Below are positions 1,479 through 31,865 of a stretch of 64,000 nt of DNA, one piece after another (position 1 is the first letter of the stretch; each line of letters opens with the position of its first letter). Under the pieces are notes generated by a model. The model had not been told where the DNA came from. It did no database searches and worked only from the letters and a program-made list of their open reading frames with translations. This stretch comes from Prorocentrum cordatum. Taxonomy: Eukaryota; Sar; Dinophyceae; Prorocentrales; Prorocentraceae. The stretch spans positions 247,501 to 311,500 of the forward strand of contig CAUYUJ010018327.1 in the NCBI GenBank assembly GCA_963575745.1, read 5' to 3'. A program made the translations under genes and the position numbers.

Positions 1479-3209
1479 GGACTTCGACATACGCTTGGAG
1501 AGTACTGGAGGGGTCAAGGTTTAGCTGGCCTCGCCGACCTCATAAAAGATATATCTCTGCCGACGTTCGCCGAATGGCGCTGGGCTAAGATGCGTGCGTG
1601 TCTCCATGGGCTAAATGACTTTATCTGGTCAGTGGCTGGGCATTTTGATAGGCAGGCCCTCGGGGGCATCAGAGATCCGACTCGTTTGGCCAAAGTGTTT
1701 ACCGCGTTCCGCAGCCCGGTATTTCAGCATAGGTTTGAGCTCATCTCATGGTTCGCTGATTGGCTTCACGGCATTATGATATTTGCTTCTTACTGCCCGT
1801 GCCACCCAGAACGATGGGGCACGGGCGAGGCTTTCAAGTGCAGTCAAACGGGGTGTGTTCTTGGATACGCGTATGAATATAGCAGGGATGCGTTCAAGAG
1901 GGGTCTTCAGGAGGCGAACTCTTGGAAGCAGGGCAGGTTCGGGCCTCATCAAAGTCTTCTGGGTGAAGCACAGGGGCTAGTTCGCAGCACACACGCCCTG
2001 GCAGCACTTAAGATACGGTTCTTGAATGACTTGCCCTATGTTCTCGCTCGCCTGCATACCCCTGGTGTGCGAGATGTTTGCATCGCCTTGTACAATATGC
2101 ATCCTGAAGCTAATCATGATGAGACAACTCTTCATTTCTTGAGGCCTGGAGGGCCATTGCGCGCAGCTGTCGATGCGATGGGCCAGGACGGAAGTAACAT
2201 GAGCGCCGAGCTAGAGTTCGAAGTCAATGCTCTTCGCCATGCCCCCCTAGACGATACAGTTGCTGAAGGCCCCCATGCAGTAGCCTCGCATCACCACAAG
2301 AGAGCACGACGGGCGACATTCCCTTGGATAGCATCGAGTTTGAGACTGCAGTCTAATTTGGAGGATTGGAAGCAGTTCACTAGTTCTTTGGGGGAGCCAG
2401 TCGACAATCATTGGTCCATCGCATCTTCAGTGCTGAAAGTAGGTGTTGGAACCCGTGGCGCCCAGCGTGGTTTCAAAGGGCCTCGACATGTTGCTGAGGG
2501 GCGGACGTACACCGTCAAGCACCTCTCGCACATGAGGTTTGGCATGGCCGCGGTGGCACCAGGAGCTGGGAATGGGCCAGCCGCGGGACCAGGAGGTGGA
2601 GGTGGAGGGCCAGGAGATGAACCCGATGACGGCGATGATGGCGAGGACGGGGGCAAGGACGAGGAAGAGGGCCATGAAGATCCTGAAGGATGGGATGACG
2701 GAGGCGGTGGAGGTGGAGATGATGGCGATGGGAGAAAACGGAAACGACCTAACTCAGAAGGCATTCAGGAGAAGGAGGCTAGTCTGTTGGGCGATTTTCT
2801 GGACAAAACCTTGGTTCCGTTTCAGTACTACTCAGTACACTTCCCAGACCCCGATGAAGACGATGATATATGTGTATATATGCAGGTGTTATCGACTAAA
2901 GTTAGAGCGAAGTTAGTACACACTGTATCATTCGCCAGCGACGACGACATCAGGAACTACACTGTGCATGCTCAGGTTTTGGAGCGTATGATCGTGGACG
3001 ATCCCATCGATGACAGGATCGAGGCATTCCCCGTTCAGGACCCTGGCCCCGTCGACATGTTTCAGCTCCTGGACTCGTCTCGTGAGGCTAGGCAAAGGCT
3101 TAGGATCTGGAAAACAACTGAGTCTGACGTCGAAGGGTGTGTGAGGCTGTGCGAATCCAAAGTGGCATCGCCGACCGGTGCCAGGATATCATGGCCAGTT
3201 CTCTCGTAG
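1479..3209 (+). CDS. Exon 2 of the DSSPQ/DMGTE ORF
   Basis: Continues from exon 1 in phase 0 beginning GLRHTLGEYWRGQG. Next comes a region with TFAEWRWAKM, then a Cys/His cluster CPCHPERWGTGEAFKCSQTG (1794-1858; C-x-C-H then C-x4-C) that could bind zinc. After it follow a helical block (HQSLLGEAQG...) and a strongly acidic Gly/Asp/Glu linker (2560-2740) ending in a basic RKRKRP cluster resembling a nuclear localisation signal. The frame ends at TAG 3207-3209 inside sequence that continues sensibly in another frame from 3128. Either a frameshift mutation or an unseen small intron is present, so this copy may be a pseudogene. No known family assigned. Confidence 0.6.
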   Translation, partial: GLRHTLGEYWRGQGLAGLADLIKDISLPTFAEWRWAKMRACLHGLNDFIWSVAGHFDRQALGGIRDPTRLAKVFTAFRSPVFQHRFELISWFADWLHGIMIFASYCPCHPERWGTGEAFKCSQTGCVLGYAYEYSRDAFKRGLQEANSWKQGRFGPHQSLLGEAQGLVRSTHALAALKIRFLNDLPYVLARLHTPGVRDVCIALYNMHPEANHDETTLHFLRPGGPLRAAVDAMGQDGSNMSAELEFEVNALRHAPLDDTVAEGPHAVASHHHKRARRATFPWIASSLRLQSNLEDWKQFTSSLGEPVDNHWSIASSVLKVGVGTRGAQRGFKGPRHVAEGRTYTVKHLSHMRFGMAAVAPGAGNGPAAGPGGGGGGPGDEPDDGDDGEDGGKDEEEGHEDPEGWDDGGGGGGDDGDGRKRKRPNSEGIQEKEASLLGDFLDKTLVPFQYYSVHFPDPDEDDDICVYMQVLSTKVRAKLVHTVSFASDDDIRNYTVHAQVLERMIVDDPIDDRIEAFPVQDPGPVDMFQLLDSSREARQRLRIWKTTESDVEGCVRLCESKVASPTGARISWPVLS

Positions 3210-23673: not shown

Positions 23674-24219
23674 CTGTTTCAGGTCTCTCTCCAGGAGGTC
23701 TTGTACTCGGCCACCGAACTGAAGTTCCACTATCAATGCGCCATGCCCTTCTCATCTTCGCAGGTCGCGATTCTGAAGAATGGGGCAGCGCAGCTGCAAT
23801 TCAAAGAGGGGGAGCCACGCCGGCCGTGCAGCGAGGCACGTGGGCGCTACGAGAGGTACAAGGCGGCGCCGACGATAGGCGAGGCCTGCCAGTTCGGCGC
23901 TAGTTTCCAGGATTTCAATGTGAATTTCAAGAAGGTGTATCTCGCAGTTTTTGATCAACCCGCAAATCGCGCATCAACATAGAAGCGCGGCGCCGCTGAG
24001 GGAGCCCCAGATCGGGAAGGCAACGCGAGGTCGAAAGTTTTCGCCCGCTGTCTTGCCCAGAAGTTTTCGGGCGCCCCCATGCCCATGACTGATTAGATCG
24101 AGCGCGCCGAGATGAGCTCGGCTACCATCGCCGCGCTGCGAGGCATGATCACAGCGGAGACCAAATCCGGACATGACGAGGTTCAGCGAGTTGCACGGGC
24201 AAAGGTGGAGGAGGCCATT
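23674..24219 (+). pseudogene. LINE-B ORF1, 5' half
   Basis: One frame reads EVLYSATELKFHYQCAMPFS, then GRYERYKAAPTIGEACQFG and FNVNFKKVYL. It is interrupted by TAG at 23980 and TAG at 24088, then resumes as MSSATIAALRGMITAETKSG...VARAKVEEAI, where LINE-A cuts it at 24219. The RYERYKAA..IGE pattern looks like a conserved ORF1 module of dinoflagellate LINEs as I recall them; no enzymatic motif is present. The continuation lies at 31155. Confidence 0.5.
24206..24219 (+). repeat. Left 14-bp target-site duplication of LINE-A
   Basis: TGGAGGAGGCCATT, identical to 31141-31154. It directly abuts the T-run that is the element's poly(A) on the minus strand. Confidence 0.95.
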
Positions 24220-24226
24220 TTTTTTT
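24218..24226 (-). other. Poly(A) tail of LINE-A
   Basis: Nine T on the + strand, read as A9 at the 3' end of the minus-strand element; two of them overlap the duplicated target. This is the mark of target-primed reverse transcription. Confidence 0.85.
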
Positions 24227-24464
24227 ATCTCTGTGGGCGCGGACAAAGGTCCACGGTTTCATGCAAACAAATTCAAGCAGGCGGGACGGCCGCCGCCCTC
24301 GCGGCTCGCCCGCGTTCGCGGGCCGCCGCAGCGTCCGCGAAGCCGTGGGCTCGGAGGACGCCCTCGAGCCCTGGCGGATCCGCCGCGGCTCGGCTGCCTC
24401 CGCCCGCGGGGCCGCCGCTGCCAGGCGCCGCGGCGCCGTGGCGCTCGGCGGCGCAGCCAACTGG
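24227..24464 (-). other. 3' untranslated region of LINE-A
   Basis: 238 bp between the ORF2 stop (24465-24467) and the poly(A). GC-rich, ending GTCCGCGCCCACAGAGAT before the A-run. No canonical AATAAA, which is normal for dinoflagellates. Confidence 0.7.
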
Positions 24465-27400
24465 CTACCAGCGCCAGCCGCAGGCGGCGTGGGCGGGGCT
24501 GCAGCAGGCTGCCGCGGCGCTGGCTCGGACGCCGCCTCGGTCGCCTGCACCTCCGAGCCGTGGCCCTGCCTGGCCTGGAGTGCCGCCGCCCAGCGCAGGC
24601 GCGTGCTTGCCGTTGGCGAGGCCAGCGGCGCGAACGGCTCCTTCGACGCTGGCAGGATCCCACGTGCGAAGTCCGACCGCGCCTGGGCTCTGGATCCCTT
24701 CTTGCTTTTGGGCTGCCCCGCCGCCGCGCTGGCCCCGCACGGCTTGCCCAGGCCGCGGTGCCGCCACCGCTGCCAGGGCCGCCGCCGTGGCGAGGCGGGG
24801 GCCGCCGTCAGCCGCCGAGGGCTGCGCTACGCCGACGTCATCGCCAGGCTCGGCGTCGGGCTCCTTCAAGAAGCCAGTCGCTGAAGCGGCAGCCCCGCGC
24901 ACCTCCGCGTCGCGCATCACCTCGAGCTCGCCGCGCCCCTGGGGCTGCGACGTCGGTGGGCTGAATCCACCTGTCCCAGGGGCGGGCTCCGCCGCGGCGG
25001 CGTGCAGGAAGTCGGTCTCGCCGTCGAGCTCCGCCGCCATGTAGGGGGTGAGGTCGACGAGCTCCAGCGAGCTGATGGGCCAGGAGCCCCGCAAGCCCGA
25101 CTCCGTAGCCTGGACCTCGAACTCGGCGGCGTACCGCGCCGCGTCACGGGCGCGGGCCAGGCAGCCCTGGAGCAGGAGGGCCTCCTCGTCGGCGATGGCG
25201 CGCAGCGCCGCGCCCGCCTTCGCGAGCTGGTCCGCGAGGCGGTTGCCGTAGAGCTCCACCTCCGAGAGTACGCCCTGCTCGACTGCCGCCCGAGAACGGT
25301 GGGCGGGGATGTGCTTCACGTGCACCCCCTCGGCGGCGTCGCCGACCCTCGCCCAGAGGTGGGCAAACTGGGCCGTCGGGGCCGCCGCCCTCTTCACGTC
25401 CTTGCAAGCCCCGACCGTGCCGAGGCAGTCGATCATGAGGTGGTAGTGGCCGACGATGTCCGTGAGGGCGACCACCGCCGCGTAGTCCTCGCCTGCCCTC
25501 GCCGTCTGGCTGGGCAAAAGGGCAGGCGGCACTGCCCCCCACGCTTGCGCCAACCACTCGCCGTCGGGCGTGAGAACCACCACTGCCCAGCCCGCGCTCC
25601 TGACCATCGGGAAGTCGTTGTTGACGCAGGAGCCGTCCGTGAAGACGAGGGAGCCCGCGGGCACCACGAGCGCGCCCTCGTCCCAGCCACGCGAGCGGCG
25701 CTCCCAGCGAGGGTCCCAGCGCGGCCTCTGCACCAGGTATTGGGCGTCAACGAAGAGGCCCTGGCAGAAGAGCTCCTCGTAGCGGTGGCCCATTGTGCTC
25801 ACCAGCTCGGCAGCTCGCTTCAAGTCGGCGGGCTTGCAATCTCGCCGCCAGCCCTCCCAGGCAGGGCATCTGTGGTGGCGGTGGGCCAGAGTCCCGCTCT
25901 CCTCGCCGCAGGGCAGGCAGCGGTCGTCGATGTCGGTGCCACGCTTGGCCAGCCTGGCCTGCGGCCATAGTGACAGAGACGCCAGCCTGCGCAGGCAGCC
26001 GCAGTGGTGGCTGGACCACGTCTCCGTGGGCGCGGCGCCGAGGAGCTGGTTGATGGCCCGCCAGTTTGGCGGCAGCTGCCACGGCCACAGGGTATCAGGC
26101 CTGGCGTCGTACTCCTGGAAGGCTGCCGCCTTCCTGGCCGCCTCCTTGGCCTTCTCCGCAAGGAAGGCGGGGGAGTACCGAAGGACGGAGTAGCAGCAGC
26201 CGAACTCGTCCTGCAGGGAGTCGCCGTCGTCGCCGAGGCCCCAGCCGATGACCTGCAGCGTGAGCACCAAAGCCGAGATCGAGTCCCTGACGGCAGCCCA
26301 AGGGCGCTGGAGCCTCACGATCCTGGCGCTCTCCGCTATGCAGGCCTGGATCGCCGCCGCGGAGGCCTGGCCTGCCCAGCGGACATTGGTGTACGCTAGG
26401 ACGGCCAAGCCCGTGGCCACTACTAGCGGGTCCTGGCGCCAGCCTCGCGGCGAGCACTGCAGCAGGAAGCCCAGCGCAGCCCCAGGAGCCAGTTTGCCCG
26501 TCGCCTTGGCCGCTGCCAGCCTCAGGGCTCTCATGCGGCCAGGTGGGATGCCGTTGCAGGCCGAGCCCCATAGGGCTTTGGCCGAGGGGCCCGCGCGCAA
26601 GACCCTTGCCTGCCGAAGGCCAGGCCCGAAGATCTTGTGGAGCCTGCTGGCCTGCCGCAGCGCCGCGAGCTCTCTACCGACCTGAGTCGCGACTCGCCTG
26701 TGGCTGCCAGCCGCGGCGTCGACGCCGAGGTCACGGTGGCCCGAGACAAAGGCATCGGCCGCGAGCCGCCAGTCGGGTTCCCGCTGCAGGCGGCGCTGGA
26801 GGCCCGCCGTGGAGGCCAGGACCTTCGTCTTCTTCCAGTTGATGGGCAGCCGCCTGTCCGCCAGCATCTCGACCACGCCGCTGACGAAGCTCGCGATCGT
26901 TCGGCTGGGCGCCGCTGCCGACCCGATGCCGTGGCCTGCTATGTCGTCGATGACGTTGACGACCCTGCCGACTGGCAGCAGCGCCCTGGCCTGGAGCAGG
27001 AGGCCGTGCAGCATGAGCCTGGCCAGCGTCGTCGCGCAGGAGCAGCCCGCGATGATGGTGCCGCTGACCTCAATGGGCTCGCTGATGGCGGCGTCCGCCG
27101 AGGCGCGGCGCGGCCCAGCGTAGAGTACGCAGAGGGCCCTGAGCAGACCGACGCTGAAGCCGTTGCCCTCCGCGGCCTGGCGCAGAAGGTCATGGTCGAT
27201 CCGCTCGTAGAACTTGCTGATGTCGAAGTAGACGGAGGCTGCCTCGAAGCCAAGCTGGCGGGCGAGCGCGAGCCCCAGGTTGTGGAGGTAGGCCGCCCTG
27301 TCACAGCAGGTGTTCGCGTCCTTGCCCCAGACCTCGGGGAGCGGGTGGTCCGCCTCCCACTTGGCGCAGTAGCGGCGGCGCACCCTGCTCCAGATACGCG

Positions 27401-30400
27401 TCCACATGCTCATGATGCCGATCGGGCGGCGGCCTCCGTCGGGCTTCCCCAGGAAGACGATCACCGTGGTGAAGAAGGCTGTGGGCTGCGGCTGCTGCTC
27501 CCAAGCCGTGAGCACCTCTGCCATCCTCTCGGCGAAGGGCCTGCCCAGGGAGAGGACCAGCCGCGGGTGGAACGCATCCCAGCCCAGAGCGGTCTGCTTC
27601 GGGAACGATTTCGCCGCCTCGAGGATGTCGTCCGCCGTGATAGGGGGCAGCTCCATGGAGCAGATCCAGTCGGCTGGTCTGGACCTGCACTCCCCGTCGG
27701 CACCTTTCCAAAGGGCCTTCCACTCAATGAGGATCTGGTCCAGGGCTTGCTGGCCAACAACTGGGAGCGGCAGGCTGTCGGGGCAGTGCGCGGTCACCGA
27801 GTCCAGCACCTGGTCACGGTCCTTTATGACTGCGTGGGCGCCCTTTGCCCCCTTCGCCAAGGCCTCGTCCACGAAGTCCTTCCAGCGCAGCCTGGCCGCC
27901 TTGGCGTCTTCTTTGCGGTGCCTCTCCGTCGTGCTCTCGATCATCTGCAGGAAGGCCTGCCCTTGCTCGGTGGGCTCCTGGATCACGTCTATCAGCGAGT
28001 CAAGCTTCGAGCCTTCGAACATGGTGCAACCCGCCTGCTCGAACTTGGGCCCCAAGCTCTTTGCCACCTGCACCAGGTGCTTGATGTAGCCGACGTGCCC
28101 CACAGGGGGTGAGCAGACCGCAGCAGCCGCCCTGAGCTGCCTGGCGATCCTCCCGAGGCAGAGCCAGCACTTGGTGATGGGGCTGAGCTTTCTGACAGCC
28201 TCCGTGCGCTGCAGGTCCGCCAGCTTCTTCTTGACGGTGCGGGGACCTTTGGCCCTGCCCTGGTACCTCTCTCCCTCGTAGATGCCGAACTGGTCGATCA
28301 GGTGGAGCTCCGCGGCCTCGAAGAACTCCTTGATCGCCGCATCGGGCGTGCCGTCTCTGTCGGTGATGGGGGCTGTCCAGCTGATCTGGGTCGCCGCCTG
28401 CAGGGATATCTCACGCTGCTCGGCCGAGACCTCCGAGCCCACCTCGAAGACCCTGGGGGTCTTGAGGACCCAGGCCATGGCGTTGCTGCCCAGCTCGCTG
28501 AACGTGAGCCGCACTGGTGCGTGCGGGTTCAGTGTAGTGGGCTTGATGACCTCCACCTTCGGGCTGAGGCCGGCGAGCGCCGTGGAGATCACGAAGAAGT
28601 CGTAGATCTGGTCGCCGCAGGTGAAGGTCGCGGGCGCGACTACCACCCCGCCCACAGCCCGTGGCCACCAAGAGGCGGCGAGCACGCTGGGGTCCATATT
28701 CCAGTCGGCCCCCACTATGAACGGCTCGTGGAGGCTGAACAGGAACTCCTGGAGGTCCGACAGAAGCTCCAGGTTGTAGCCAGCCATCCTGGTCGTGTGC
28801 TCGAGGTAGGCGCTGACCACCGTAACCACGAGATCGCCGAAGGCCACCCGTCGGGCCAGGATGCGGGCACTGTGCTGGTGCCAGTCGTGGTCGATAGCCG
28901 CCACGCCCCTAGACTTTGACGTCAGCACCCCGACGCCCGCCGAGACCGCCTGGGCCGCCTGCCCCGTGCTGTGGACGCAGCCGAAGGCAGCGCTGACACA
29001 GTTGCGCCTGGCCCAGCTGCAGGCGTCAGTCGCCTTCTGGCTGGAGGTGAAGCGTGTCTCCTGCACCAGGATGACGTCGTCGCCTCCTCCTTCGTCCTGG
29101 ATCCGCTCCAGCTCCACCTGCGTCTCTGTCCAGGTCGAGCCGTTCAGTGTGACGAAGCTGGCTCGCTTCGCTCCCACTGGCCTGATCAGCTTGGCCAGCT
29201 GGAGGGGCTTGACCTGCGGTCGACCAGGCTGAGGCTGCGCCGCAGGCTTCACGACTGCCGCGGCGGCCGAGCGGCCGCCAGGCGGGCGGCTGCTCGCCGC
29301 CTTGGGACTCCGAACCTCGGGGGGTCTCACGCCCTCGCCCGTAGCCTGGTCAACTTGAAATGGGTACCCACTATTCCTTATGGGCCCCTGGCTGGGCTGA
29401 GGACTGCCAGTCCTTCGGTCGGGCCCAGCCAAGTCCGCCGCAGCGCTTGGCCCTGGACTGCTGCTGAGTGCCTCGAACTTGGTGTCGTGGCGCGCGTCAT
29501 CGAAGCGCCGGTCCTGGCGCAGCAGCGGCACTCTGAAGGGAAGCCCTTCCCAGGCGTCGGCCTGCTCATTGGCCGCCAGGTAGGCGTGCAGGCCGCCTCT
29601 CGATGGCGCCGCCGCCTCGGGGCGGCTGGGCACCGCCGCCTCTGCCTCCTCAGCCCCGACTGGGGCGGGCGGCGCCGCACCGTCGGGGCCGCCTCCTGGC
29701 AGCAGGGTGCTACCCGCAGGTCTGGCCACTGCCAGCAGCAGCGCCAGCAGCAGGTGGAGGGGCCGCCGCAGCGGCCTTCTGGTCGGCTGCGCGCTGGCGG
29801 GCCGCCTCGTCTGCCGCTCGGCTCTCCGCAGCGGCCGCTGGGGGGGGTCCAGCTCCTGGCGCAGCGCCTGCGGCTGGGGCGGCGGCGGCAGCAGGGGCGG
29901 CCGCCTGTCCTGAAGGTTGAGGCGGGGCGGCAGCACCCTGCTCGGGGGTGCCAGCGGCCTCGGCTGCTGCAGGCCCCTCCTCGGAGCGCTTGCGCTTCTT
30001 GGCCACCTCCTCCTCGATCTGGCGCTTGATGCGCTGCTGGTGCTCCTGCCAGTTGCGCTCGAACGTAGCCTGCGCGCCCTGCATGATCTGGAGCCCTTCC
30101 TCGCAGAGGCGCCTGAGGGTGGCCTGCGCCTCCTCCTCCAGCTCCGCGAAGTTGTCGAACGACTCCGCGTCGAAGTTGAAGGTGAGCTGCTTCGCTCCGT
30201 CGGGCTGTGCGCCCACAACGCCAGCCGCCTGGGCCCGCTGGCACAAGAGGGCGTTCTCCTCCTCCTCGGCCTCCGTGAGGTTGACTGCAGCCTCGTCGCG
30301 CCAGCCGCGGCACTGGGCGAGGTGGTCCTCCGCCGCCACGAGCGCATCCGCCGCCTCGTCGAGCTGGCGCTGGAGGTTGATCCGCTTCGCCGTGGCAGAC

Positions 30401-31115
30401 TGCAGCCGCTGCTCGAGTGGCTTTGGCGCTGGGGCGGCCGCGGGCGCGACGAAGCACCGCGCGTCGCGGACCGCCTCCTGCAGCCTGGCCGCGATGGCGG
30501 GGCCCCCGCAGGCGAGGAGCGCGTCGAGCTCGCTCTCGGGCAGGGCCGACCAAGGGGCCTTCGGGAAGGCGCCTCCACCACGGCCGCCCGCGCCTCCGAC
30601 GCCGCCGCCACGGGAGGCTGCACCGCCTCCGCCGCCACGGGAGGCTGCACCTCGGCCTTTGCCGCCCTTGCCGCCCTTGGCGCCACCCCTCGGCGAGCCT
30701 CCGCCGCCGCCTCCACGATGCGCGGGTGGGGAGCCGCCGCCGCCGCCATCCGCCCAGACCCCGACGCGGGGCGAAGGCTTCGAGGGCGCCAGCTCCAGCC
30801 CAATCCCACACTGCCAGCACTCCGCGTTCTTGCGGAAGTTCCAGCGGTAGCGGCAGCCCGTGCACACGACGAAGCCAGGCTCGGCCTTGGGCCCCATTGC
30901 TGGAGCGGGCGGGCGTGCTGCTCAGCCGCGGGCGTGCGGCAGGCAGGAGTCGACGGGGGCGGACCCGCCGACTCGGAAGAAGGCGTGACCCGCAGGTCCT
31001 GGAGGGTGTTGCGGTGGCAGCACTCGCAAGTTGGAAAGGAAGGTGGCCTCAAAGCGGAACCTCCCTCGCGCTCAGAATTCGCCCCGAAAGACTCGCGGTC
31101 GTCGGGACGGTTCAT
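24465..31115 (-). CDS. LINE-A ORF2: APE-like endonuclease, reverse transcriptase, RNase H polyprotein
   Basis: A frame of 2216 codons opens at the ATG three bases after the spliced leader and never stops before 24465. Recognisable protein starts only near residue 450 (position ~29760). APE-like: VILVQETRF (~675), FIVGADWNMDP (~800), YDFFVIS, NPHAPVRL (~862). RT: VIVFLGKPDGGRRPIG (~1225), YFDISKFYERID (~1295), GCSCATTLARLML, and catalytic VIDDIAGHG (~1388; the usual aromatic of the xxDD box is V-I). A CLPCGEESGTLAHRHHRC knuckle lies at ~1735. RNase H: FTDGSCV (~1820), AGEDYAAVVAL, MIDCLG, HIPAHRS, NRLADQLAKAG (~1957). Residues ~75-450 overlap ORF1 in another frame and are Arg/Ser/Ala-rich, so they are probably not the translated product. 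The true start may use a +1 frameshift from ORF1. Confidence 0.9.
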   Translation of the reverse strand: MNRPDDRESFGANSEREGGSALRPPSFPTCECCHRNTLQDLRVTPSSESAGPPPSTPACRTPAAEQHARPLQQWGPRPSLASSCARAAATAGTSARTRSAGSVGLGWSWRPRSLRPASGSGRMAAAAAPHPRIVEAAAEARRGVAPRAARAAKAEVQPPVAAEAVQPPVAAASEARAAVVEAPSRRPLGRPCPRASSTRSSPAGAPPSRPGCRRRSATRGASSRPRPPQRQSHSSSGCSLPRRSGSTSSASSTRRRMRSWRRRTTSPSAAAGATRLQSTSRRPRRRRTPSCASGPRRLALWAHSPTERSSSPSTSTRSRSTTSRSWRRRRRPPSGASARKGSRSCRARRLRSSATGRSTSSASSARSRRRWPRSASAPRRGLQQPRPLAPPSRVLPPRLNLQDRRPPLLPPPPQPQALRQELDPPQRPLRRAERQTRRPASAQPTRRPLRRPLHLLLALLLAVARPAGSTLLPGGGPDGAAPPAPVGAEEAEAAVPSRPEAAAPSRGGLHAYLAANEQADAWEGLPFRVPLLRQDRRFDDARHDTKFEALSSSPGPSAAADLAGPDRRTGSPQPSQGPIRNSGYPFQVDQATGEGVRPPEVRSPKAASSRPPGGRSAAAAVVKPAAQPQPGRPQVKPLQLAKLIRPVGAKRASFVTLNGSTWTETQVELERIQDEGGGDDVILVQETRFTSSQKATDACSWARRNCVSAAFGCVHSTGQAAQAVSAGVGVLTSKSRGVAAIDHDWHQHSARILARRVAFGDLVVTVVSAYLEHTTRMAGYNLELLSDLQEFLFSLHEPFIVGADWNMDPSVLAASWWPRAVGGVVVAPATFTCGDQIYDFFVISTALAGLSPKVEVIKPTTLNPHAPVRLTFSELGSNAMAWVLKTPRVFEVGSEVSAEQREISLQAATQISWTAPITDRDGTPDAAIKEFFEAAELHLIDQFGIYEGERYQGRAKGPRTVKKKLADLQRTEAVRKLSPITKCWLCLGRIARQLRAAAAVCSPPVGHVGYIKHLVQVAKSLGPKFEQAGCTMFEGSKLDSLIDVIQEPTEQGQAFLQMIESTTERHRKEDAKAARLRWKDFVDEALAKGAKGAHAVIKDRDQVLDSVTAHCPDSLPLPVVGQQALDQILIEWKALWKGADGECRSRPADWICSMELPPITADDILEAAKSFPKQTALGWDAFHPRLVLSLGRPFAERMAEVLTAWEQQPQPTAFFTTVIVFLGKPDGGRRPIGIMSMWTRIWSRVRRRYCAKWEADHPLPEVWGKDANTCCDRAAYLHNLGLALARQLGFEAASVYFDISKFYERIDHDLLRQAAEGNGFSVGLLRALCVLYAGPRRASADAAISEPIEVSGTIIAGCSCATTLARLMLHGLLLQARALLPVGRVVNVIDDIAGHGIGSAAAPSRTIASFVSGVVEMLADRRLPINWKKTKVLASTAGLQRRLQREPDWRLAADAFVSGHRDLGVDAAAGSHRRVATQVGRELAALRQASRLHKIFGPGLRQARVLRAGPSAKALWGSACNGIPPGRMRALRLAAAKATGKLAPGAALGFLLQCSPRGWRQDPLVVATGLAVLAYTNVRWAGQASAAAIQACIAESARIVRLQRPWAAVRDSISALVLTLQVIGWGLGDDGDSLQDEFGCCYSVLRYSPAFLAEKAKEAARKAAAFQEYDARPDTLWPWQLPPNWRAINQLLGAAPTETWSSHHCGCLRRLASLSLWPQARLAKRGTDIDDRCLPCGEESGTLAHRHHRCPAWEGWRRDCKPADLKRAAELVSTMGHRYEELFCQGLFVDAQYLVQRPRWDPRWERRSRGWDEGALVVPAGSLVFTDGSCVNNDFPMVRSAGWAVVVLTPDGEWLAQAWGAVPPALLPSQTARAGEDYAAVVALTDIVGHYHLMIDCLGTVGACKDVKRAAAPTAQFAHLWARVGDAAEGVHVKHIPAHRSRAAVEQGVLSEVELYGNRLADQLAKAGAALRAIADEEALLLQGCLARARDAARYAAEFEVQATESGLRGSWPISSLELVDLTPYMAAELDGETDFLHAAAAEPAPGTGGFSPPTSQPQGRGELEVMRDAEVRGAAASATGFLKEPDAEPGDDVGVAQPSAADGGPRLATAAALAAVAAPRPGQAVRGQRGGGAAQKQEGIQSPGAVGLRTWDPASVEGAVRAAGLANGKHAPALGGGTPGQAGPRLGGAGDRGGVRASAAAACCSPAHAACGWRW
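29710..30897 (-). CDS. LINE-A ORF1: zinc-finger, coiled-coil RNA-binding-type protein
   Basis: 395 codons from ATG 30897 (MGPKAEPGFVVCTGCRYRWN). C12, C15, C27 and C30 form C-x2-C-x11-C-x2-C, a RanBP2-type/zinc-ribbon-like finger. A Gly-rich, Arg-dotted stretch (50-110, RGG-like) suits nucleic acid binding. Two predicted coiled coils (about 160-215 and 245-305) and a basic KKRKR at 300-304 follow, then an Ala/Pro tail. It lies 218 bp inside the larger open frame and is offset from it. The ORF2 frame is +1 relative to it, so +1 frameshifting or re-initiation would be needed. ORF1 proteins of LINEs typically trimerise through coiled coils and chaperone the RNA, which is the likely role. Confidence 0.75.
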   Translation of the reverse strand: MGPKAEPGFVVCTGCRYRWNFRKNAECWQCGIGLELAPSKPSPRVGVWADGGGGGSPPAHRGGGGGGSPRGGAKGGKGGKGRGAASRGGGGGAASRGGGVGGAGGRGGGAFPKAPWSALPESELDALLACGGPAIAARLQEAVRDARCFVAPAAAPAPKPLEQRLQSATAKRINLQRQLDEAADALVAAEDHLAQCRGWRDEAAVNLTEAEEEENALLCQRAQAAGVVGAQPDGAKQLTFNFDAESFDNFAELEEEAQATLRRLCEEGLQIMQGAQATFERNWQEHQQRIKRQIEEEVAKKRKRSEEGPAAAEAAGTPEQGAAAPPQPSGQAAAPAAAAAPAAGAAPGAGPPPAAAAESRAADEAARQRAADQKAAAAAPPPAAGAAAGSGQTCG

Positions 31116-31118
31116 TGC

Positions 31119-31140
31119 CTTGAGCCAAAATGGCTACGGA
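31119..31140 (-). other. Intact dinoflagellate spliced leader (DinoSL) at LINE-A 5' end
   Basis: On the minus strand reads TCCGTAGCCATTTT then GGCTCAAG: all 22 positions fit the consensus DCCGTAGCC...CTCAAG. It is followed by GCA and the ATG at 31115, and preceded directly by the target-site duplication. It is a copied exon, not an SL RNA gene: no GT donor or Sm site follows. Confidence 0.97.
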
Positions 31141-31154
31141 TGGAGGAGGCCATT
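31141..31154 (+). repeat. Right 14-bp target-site duplication of LINE-A
   Basis: TGGAGGAGGCCATT, identical to 24206-24219, immediately next to the leader's 5' base. Confidence 0.95.
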
Positions 31155-31731
31155 GCCCATTGCACCGTTGAGCGAGGAATTGAAGATGGAGCGCGAGCAC
31201 CGCAACAATATCGAGCACCGCATTTGCATTCCTGAGGACGTCATCCAATCCAAACGTGGAGGAGAACATGGAATGGAAAGTGAACAATGGGATTCCGACG
31301 TCGTCAAATCAGTTGTCGTAGTTGGGGGATTCCGGGACTTGGAGGCGGACGCAGCAGAGAAGTTTATCGAGGATGTTTTCGAAGACGTCGGCGGCGCGGA
31401 GGATGTGTTCGTCGCGAATTCAGAGCCTGTCGTGGCCTTCGTGCGTTTTGAATCGGGCGCGGCGGCGATGAAGTTCTTGCGCAACCAGCGCAGGTATCAG
31501 AAGCTCACGGATGCTCACCTTTGGGCTTCAGAGAATCGGCGGCGCGTGGAGATCCTTAGTAAAAGCTTGCTATCGCATGCGAGGGCTACTAGGCGAAAAG
31601 CATCATCGTTTACCATAAGACGTTCAAATGGCACGCGCGCGTGGGTTGTAAGCTGGTGCGCCTGGCGGATGTCACGGACGATGCTTCTGCGATGTGGGTC
31701 GAGGGCGATCACGCAGCAGCAGATCTTTTGA
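31155..31731 (+). pseudogene. LINE-B ORF1, 3' half (RRM-like)
   Basis: Resumes the ORF1 interrupted at 24219, in a shifted frame: LSEELKMEREHRNN, then SVVVVGGFRDLEADAAEKFI, an alternating beta-alpha region, and VVAFVRFESGAAAMKFLRNQ. VVVGGF and VAFVRF are placed like the RNP2/RNP1 strands of an RRM, common in LINE ORF1 proteins. WASENRRRVEILSKSLLSHA follows. The frame ends at 31729-31731 and later sequence shifts frame repeatedly. Confidence 0.5.
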
Positions 31732-31865
31732 AGGGGGTTGCTGAGGTGGTCGTCGAGGAGGTGAACATGTAAGGATTATGCCAGGGTGGGCATGGCCAAA
31801 GCAGCCGAAGCCGAGACGTCGAAGACCGGCAGAAACACACGCAGGAGGAATTCATCCCAATACGA

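Follow-up and report, generated by a model that had tools for sequence, protein, structure and literature searches.

A LINE family of Prorocentrum cordatum whose genomic copies begin with the dinoflagellate spliced leader

DinoSL-tagged retrogenes are integrated cDNAs with the dinoflagellate spliced leader (SL) at the 5′ end, and the tandem relics in them are truncated at the internal AG of the SL (PMC3229502, PMC12014239, PMC6050394). The type of retroelement behind these retrogenes is unknown, and long terminal repeat (LTR) elements have been favoured (PMC6050394). The L1Tc/ingi elements of trypanosomatids have an internal Pr77 promoter and a ribozyme, which lead to unspliced transcripts (PMC8190864, PMC4035085). 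In Schistosoma mansoni, six genome-encoded SL exon sequences were found merged with transposable elements and were suggested to have been trans-spliced and retro-transcribed (PMC5832876). The window analysed in this study is a stretch of 64,000 nt from the dinoflagellate Prorocentrum cordatum (assembly GCA_963575745.1, contig CAUYUJ010018327.1, positions 247,501 to 311,500 of the forward strand). It contains a long interspersed nuclear element (LINE) whose 5′ terminus is a complete DinoSL. Comparison of its genomic copies points with good confidence to a LINE family that is target-specific and replicates through an SL-trans-spliced mRNA.

The element resembles the DinoSL retrogenes in its 5′ SL and in the relics cut at the internal AG. 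It differs from them in that the cargo is a retrotransposon with many target-specific copies bounded by duplications, and in that the SL appears to recur in the life cycle of the element. The L1Tc/ingi LINEs likewise live in a host that transcribes its genes polycistronically and trans-splices an SL, but they have the Pr77 promoter and ribozyme where the present family has an SL tip. For S. mansoni, a chimeric assembly was not excluded by the authors, and the available part of the article describes no termini, duplications or tandem leaders (PMC5832876). SymbioLINE-Dnmt of Symbiodinium is also a dinoflagellate LINE with two open reading frames (ORF1 and ORF2), whereas its ORF1 encodes a DNA methyltransferase and the term 'spliced leader' is absent from the available text of PMC5890265. 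LINEs are known to insert into transposons and microsatellites, and the target-specific APE-type LINEs of the Tx1 and R1 clades also integrate into multicopy targets; no SL terminus is described for them in the accessible portion of PMC4640811. In our literature search, which covered few subscription papers and only a minority of the papers listed, no LINE ending in an SL was described except for the flatworm hint in PMC5832876.

The first-pass annotation of this DNA had placed a complete 22-nt DinoSL between a 14-bp target-site duplication and the first ATG, with a poly(A) against the other copy of the duplication. These termini were confirmed. The leader, TCCGTAGCCATTTTGGCTCAAG, stands at the tip without a mismatch (Table 1). 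It is the sole match in the window even when up to three mismatches are allowed, and none of 100 shuffled sequences gave one. The window contains exactly two copies of the duplication, TGGAGGAGGCCATT, one against each end of the element. The neighbouring bases diverge immediately on both sides, so it is not a piece of a longer repeat, and among 199,674 random position pairs with a shift of up to 3 allowed, an exact match of at least 14 was found in only 3. The poly(A) at the other duplication copy consists of 7 A, and 2 further A are common to it and the duplication. The T before CCGTAG is a base of the element because a C stands behind the 3′ duplication; the window copy therefore includes even the leader's first nucleotide. 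The bases directly after the SL are GCAATG. An SL RNA gene would have its GT splice donor behind the exon, and the window SL was rejected as such a gene on this ground.

Genomic copies were collected from the assembly of 4,128,499,153 bases in two samples. Sample 1 used the 5′ 500 nt as query, with 40 of 1000 candidates scored; the SL is part of this query, which biases the sample towards SL-bearing copies. Sample 2 used the ORF1 protein P0012 as query, which gave 105 matching stretches and carries no SL bias. It comprises all 50 loci that were new relative to sample 1 and had a match from residue 1–3. The resulting 90 copies, with the window copy (L002) included, are the best matches only. 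A complete SL (at least 19/21 matches) was found at the exact tip of 81 of them, 38/40 in sample 1 and 43/50 in sample 2, and the leader matched at 21/21 positions in 68 copies. The first-pass annotation had asked whether full-length copies share the SL terminus, and both samples speak for this. The first base of the leader is T in 80/81. It is G in L020 only, and the 3′ end of L020 was not recognised, so that this G could equally be a base of the target. In sample 1, four pairs (L010/L012, L028/L058, L030/L052 and L031/L053) share their flanks, so that by our reading 34 of the SL-bearing insertions are independent; in sample 2, L114 and L117 have a common flank.

Four different sequences, here called heads, follow the SL directly at its AAG (n = 81: a 57, b 14, d 8 and c 2). 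The 5′ untranslated regions (UTRs) of types a and d are 90–93% identical over 134–137 nt, but only from nt ~92–98 and ~41–44 on. The b and c UTRs have short stretches in common, starting near nt 26 and 39, and most UTR pairs are alike immediately before ORF1. The comparison of d, b and c covers the UTRs and the starts of ORF1. The simplest reading of these alignments is that copies deprived of their tip acquired another when an SL was trans-spliced to a new acceptor site. The change may also reflect recombination between heads, but this would likewise have to stop exactly at the SL border.

Tandem leaders, which had been suggested as something to look for, are present in 7/90 copies. Five of these (L086, L090, L094, L109 and L115) read SL, CCATTTTGGCTCAAG and head. 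L098 has a cut SL followed by one relic, and L113 a cut SL followed by two. The extra unit is always a 15-nt relic, as predicted for splicing at the TAG inside the SL, and such relics were found with heads a and d. The copies thus show what defines DinoSL retrogenes, namely a 5′ SL or relic and the truncation of relics at the internal AG. The UTRs of L086 (tandem) and L089 (single leader) are 99.6% identical, and the tandem copies are scattered in the UTR tree, which has low resolution, instead of forming one group.

Homologous non-SL sequence upstream of other full-length copies had been named as an observation that would speak against an SL terminus. Such sequence does precede most type-a and type-d copies, but it belongs to the target and not to the element. 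It is assigned to the target because its divergence is far above that of the element, because its last 13–16 bp recur behind the poly(A) in 11/18 copies, because it has inverted ends, and because it is absent from the window copy. In 22/28 copies the left end of this upstream repeat agrees with the inverted right end at 19–23 of 25 positions; for this comparison the best-scoring of many positions was taken, and the right end used came from these very flanks. The repeat is mostly ~172 bp long and reads as a short inverted-end element resembling miniature inverted-repeat transposable elements (MITEs). What is duplicated is the final ~14 bp of the repeat. The window copy lies in a look-alike site, AATGGCCTCCTCCA, without the upstream repeat, and relatives with heads b and c are located in (CCT)n. 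Upstream of L023/L045 the neighbouring sequence is the 3′ end of a further copy, as it is at L091 and L110. Such head-to-tail neighbours are as expected if the duplicated target of an earlier copy was hit again. The automatic target labels are loose, since L028, L055 and L058 were tagged as MITE ends, yet their flanks differ.

Two further observations concern the targets. A second recurrent target (...gggataaaaaggggcttcgt) was seen at L028, L058 and L113, with the flank of L028 and L058 in common. The ~172-bp repeat stands upstream of the SL in L003–L031 (e.g., L007:1330–1500); the unit of repeat and LINE keeps both inverted ends, with the right end duplicated by the LINE. Repeat and LINE might be mobile together as a single DNA transposon.

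Target-site duplications were also sought in other copies. Twenty copies were fetched at length and 18 were tested; L039 and L044 were dropped, as their 3′ end gave no alignment. In 11/18, the 13–16 bp that immediately precede the SL are repeated exactly behind the tail, for example 15 bp in L037 and 14 bp in L043. Without an offset, 6–10 bp were found in L046, L047, L049 and L051, and none in L035, L045 and L050. An offset was allowed in a test of 17 loci, from which L050 was excluded. L035, L045 and L047 then showed 13 to 19 bp ending 1–3 nt before the SL, which brings the total to 14/18. In short 3′ pieces inspected by eye, the duplicated target was found behind the tail in 5/7 (L016, L019, L021, L022 and the truncated L024); the 3′ end was unreadable in L020, L012, L018 and L029.

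We propose the following cycle. A genomic copy would be transcribed by read-through, and splicing would join the SL RNA to an AG acceptor located at the extreme 5′ end of the element. Use of the TAG at SL nt 5–7 would leave a 15-nt relic, use of the AAG at SL nt 20–22 would restore the same end, and use of a new AG in the flanking DNA would give a new 5′ head. ORF1 and ORF2 would be made from the SL-bearing polyadenylated mRNA. The APE endonuclease would then nick a GC-rich site ending GCATT^G, which in most type-a and type-d copies would be the end of the inverted-end repeat. Target-primed reverse transcription would presumably follow in this order and copy the RNA up to its first nucleotide, and the new copy would again be tipped with the SL and with usable acceptors. 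The first-pass annotation had suggested that the SL is used as the element's own 5′ end in each cycle. Repeated trans-splicing is supported for the family; that the SL is needed in every cycle is a step that we infer.

Several observations weigh against this cycle. All of the evidence is genomic. Sample 2 leaves out at least 8 loci whose match begins later in ORF1. Nine of the 90 copies have no complete SL: it is decayed in L071 (17/21), cut within the leader in L087, L098 and L113, and missing in L024, L029, L074, L096 and L119 (L024 and L029, the exceptions in sample 1, match only from query positions 74 and 88). The duplication is short or missing in 4/18 copies, with 9–11 bp beside the SL in L046, L049 and L051 and none in L050. 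A single leader is present in 76/81 complete-SL copies. In 28 aligned copies the SL has two mutations, both singletons, and the 66 nt after it are nearly as constant; SL conservation alone is thus too weak as proof of renewal.

The single leader fits splicing at the AAG, by which the same end would be restored, and equally first-generation copies of a few masters. Copies resembling processed pseudogenes, derived from a small number of masters whose own 5′ ends are ordinary and lack an SL, with the SL as a passive tag and inserted copies seldom acting as parents, would also suit the broken frames of many copies and L096, which has unrelated DNA where the UTR usually starts (read here as a probable truncation). 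We regard such masters as unlikely. Double and triple leaders require SL-bearing parents, no group of full-length copies sharing a non-SL 5′ end was found among the 90 best matches, and the SL-bearing L035, L038 and L042 have open frames of 2398 aa. It is quite improbable that the SL was captured once and has been inherited since, with the RNA coming from an internal promoter or from processing at the same nucleotide. The good conservation of the first ~85 nt, and not of the SL alone, in two subfamilies agrees with inheritance, as does the constancy of T at position 1. Against it stand the exact splice boundaries of tandem leaders in two head types, the four different sequences right behind the SL on related UTRs, and the near identity of single- and tandem-leader copies elsewhere. 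Repeated SL addition is preferred over a single capture because 15-nt relics occur in 7/90 copies and the SL is joined at the AAG to four heads. Replication slippage of the 15-nt unit could in principle have produced the tandem leaders, since the AG on both sides of the unit gives a 2-nt microhomology. The same boundaries in published retrogenes were explained by splicing (PMC3229502), and their exact recurrence in two head types makes slippage very improbable here.

The upstream repeat precedes most type-a and type-d copies and might therefore be part of a larger element in which the SL is internal. This is hardly credible, as the duplications start within the right end of the repeat and recur behind the poly(A), and the duplication in the window refutes it for the window copy. 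Moreover, the repeat has inverted ends of its own, it is absent at the window copy and at L023, where the neighbour is the 3′ end of another LINE, and the relatives with heads b and c lie in (CCT)n instead. SLACS, CZAR and NeSL are elements that target the SL, and by analogy the SL could be the target and not part of the present element. LINEs targeting SL exons do exist (PMC4640811), but the probability that this is one of them is practically nil. The SL lies inside the duplications and is missing behind the 3′ duplication, the actual targets are the inverted-end repeat or (CCT)n, and the endonuclease is of the APE type and not restriction-like.

The assignment to APE-RT-RNase H LINEs made in the first pass was upheld. 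RNase H scored above its Pfam cut-off; the endonuclease and the reverse transcriptase scored below theirs and are backed by relatives, of which P0001–P0004 have a precomputed PF00078 and two of the four also PF03372. Every hit with a species name is a Prorocentrum cordatum protein. The element has a target-site duplication and a poly(A) and no LTR, and some copies are 5′-truncated, all of which are features of APE-type LINEs. D217, H278, D803 and D804 are invariant in a 9-sequence alignment. At 28521–28529 the endonuclease reads NPH, and P and H are invariant across all 9 aligned sequences, window included. SDH is the usual reading of APE-type endonucleases at this site.

Table 1. Features of the window element (window coordinates)
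Feature	Position	Strand	Remarks
5′ target-site duplication copy	31141..31154	-	14 bp, AATGGCCTCCTCCA on the element strand
Complete DinoSL, exact 5′ terminus	31119..31140	-	22 nt, TCCGTAGCCATTTTGGCTCAAG
5′ UTR, head type a (GCAATGAACCG...)	30898..31118	-	221 nt, without coding signature
ORF1	29710..30897	-	ATG 30897, 395 aa, zinc-finger-like start MGPKAEPGFVVCTGCRYRWNFRKNAECWQCG (by eye)
ORF2 region, APE endonuclease + reverse transcriptase + RNase H	24465..29709	-	frame open from 31133 to 24465
Endonuclease domain	28686..29105	-	PF03372, 23.4 bits, slightly below the cut-off of 24.5
Reverse transcriptase domain	26817..27446	-	PF00078, 16.8 bits, cut-off of 29.6 not reached; motif NVIDD
RNase H domain	25209..25649	-	PF00075, 26.4 bits, exceeds the cut-off of 25.8
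Point of ~330-bp absence	24759..24761	-	versus 18/20 other copies
Poly(A) tail	24220..24226	-	7 A
3′ target-site duplication copy	24206..24219	-	14 bp

The SL had been described as abutting the first ATG. An ATG (31115) does stand right behind the SL, but it is probably not the protein start, and ORF1 begins at its own ATG further downstream. The GC content at codon positions separates two coding frames, that of ORF1 and another for ORF2. The ORF1 start is backed by relatives beginning M[GA]PKA (MAPKAQP in P0012 versus MGPKAEP in the window). ORF1 gave no Pfam family above the cut-off. Between L035 and L048, which represent two subfamilies, the changes at codon positions 1/2/3 number 10/14/25 in ORF1, 52/34/112 in the endonuclease, reverse transcriptase and RNase H part of ORF2, and 7/8/7 in the 5′ UTR. 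By this pattern, ORF2 looks to be under constraint between the two subfamilies. A reading of the 2222-aa open frame as a single polyprotein that starts at the ATG next to the SL was ruled out by the codon-position GC, the starts of the relatives and the pattern of changes.

The window copy had also been called full-length, but at element position ~6396 (window ~24760), close to where ORF2 ends, it lacks ~330 bp that are present in 18/20 of the other copies fetched; in the remaining two, L039 and L044, the alignment did not cross this point. Open frames of 2355–2398 aa across the whole element were found in 5/20 copies (L035, L038, L042, L048 and L050), and the frames of the other 15/20 are interrupted. 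A search of solved structures gave no match at 0.01. Rfam at gathering scores gave no match in the window, so that on this weak evidence the 5′ end contains none of the known ribozyme families.

The flanks of the window copy (24114–24219 and 31141–31770, plus strand) place the element antisense within an apparent decayed coding sequence. No single clean reading frame runs across the joined flanks, and the insertion target may be an old gene or a repeat copy.

A search of viral contigs for ORF2 relatives gave two pattern matches and no relative, and tblastn against phage records gave no match. An AT-rich virus-like contig (L001, IMGVR_UViG_3300045993_001077; region 1936–2913, minus strand) contains two exact DinoSL copies. 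The second (2766–2746) stands at the front of a GC-rich stretch that includes a 254-aa frame and is flanked by AT-rich sequence. To judge from its sequence, this stretch resembles an mRNA of a dinoflagellate that was copied into the genome of a virus.

The LINE family described here demonstrably inserts complete SL-bearing RNAs, which bears on the question of the retrogene machinery raised in PMC6050394. A LINE must carry its 5′ start or lose it, and a host leader that is spliced on again would solve this problem. The leader counts of one, two or three would then keep a tally of splice cycles in the genomic sequence itself. We speculate, as a possibility that falls somewhat short of probable, that this is a LINE lineage without a 5′ end of its own. 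In such a lineage SL trans-splicing would be obligate, the SL acceptor would replace the promoter, lost tips would be regained by the capture of 5′ heads, and the same machinery would make the SL-tagged retrogenes of dinoflagellates.

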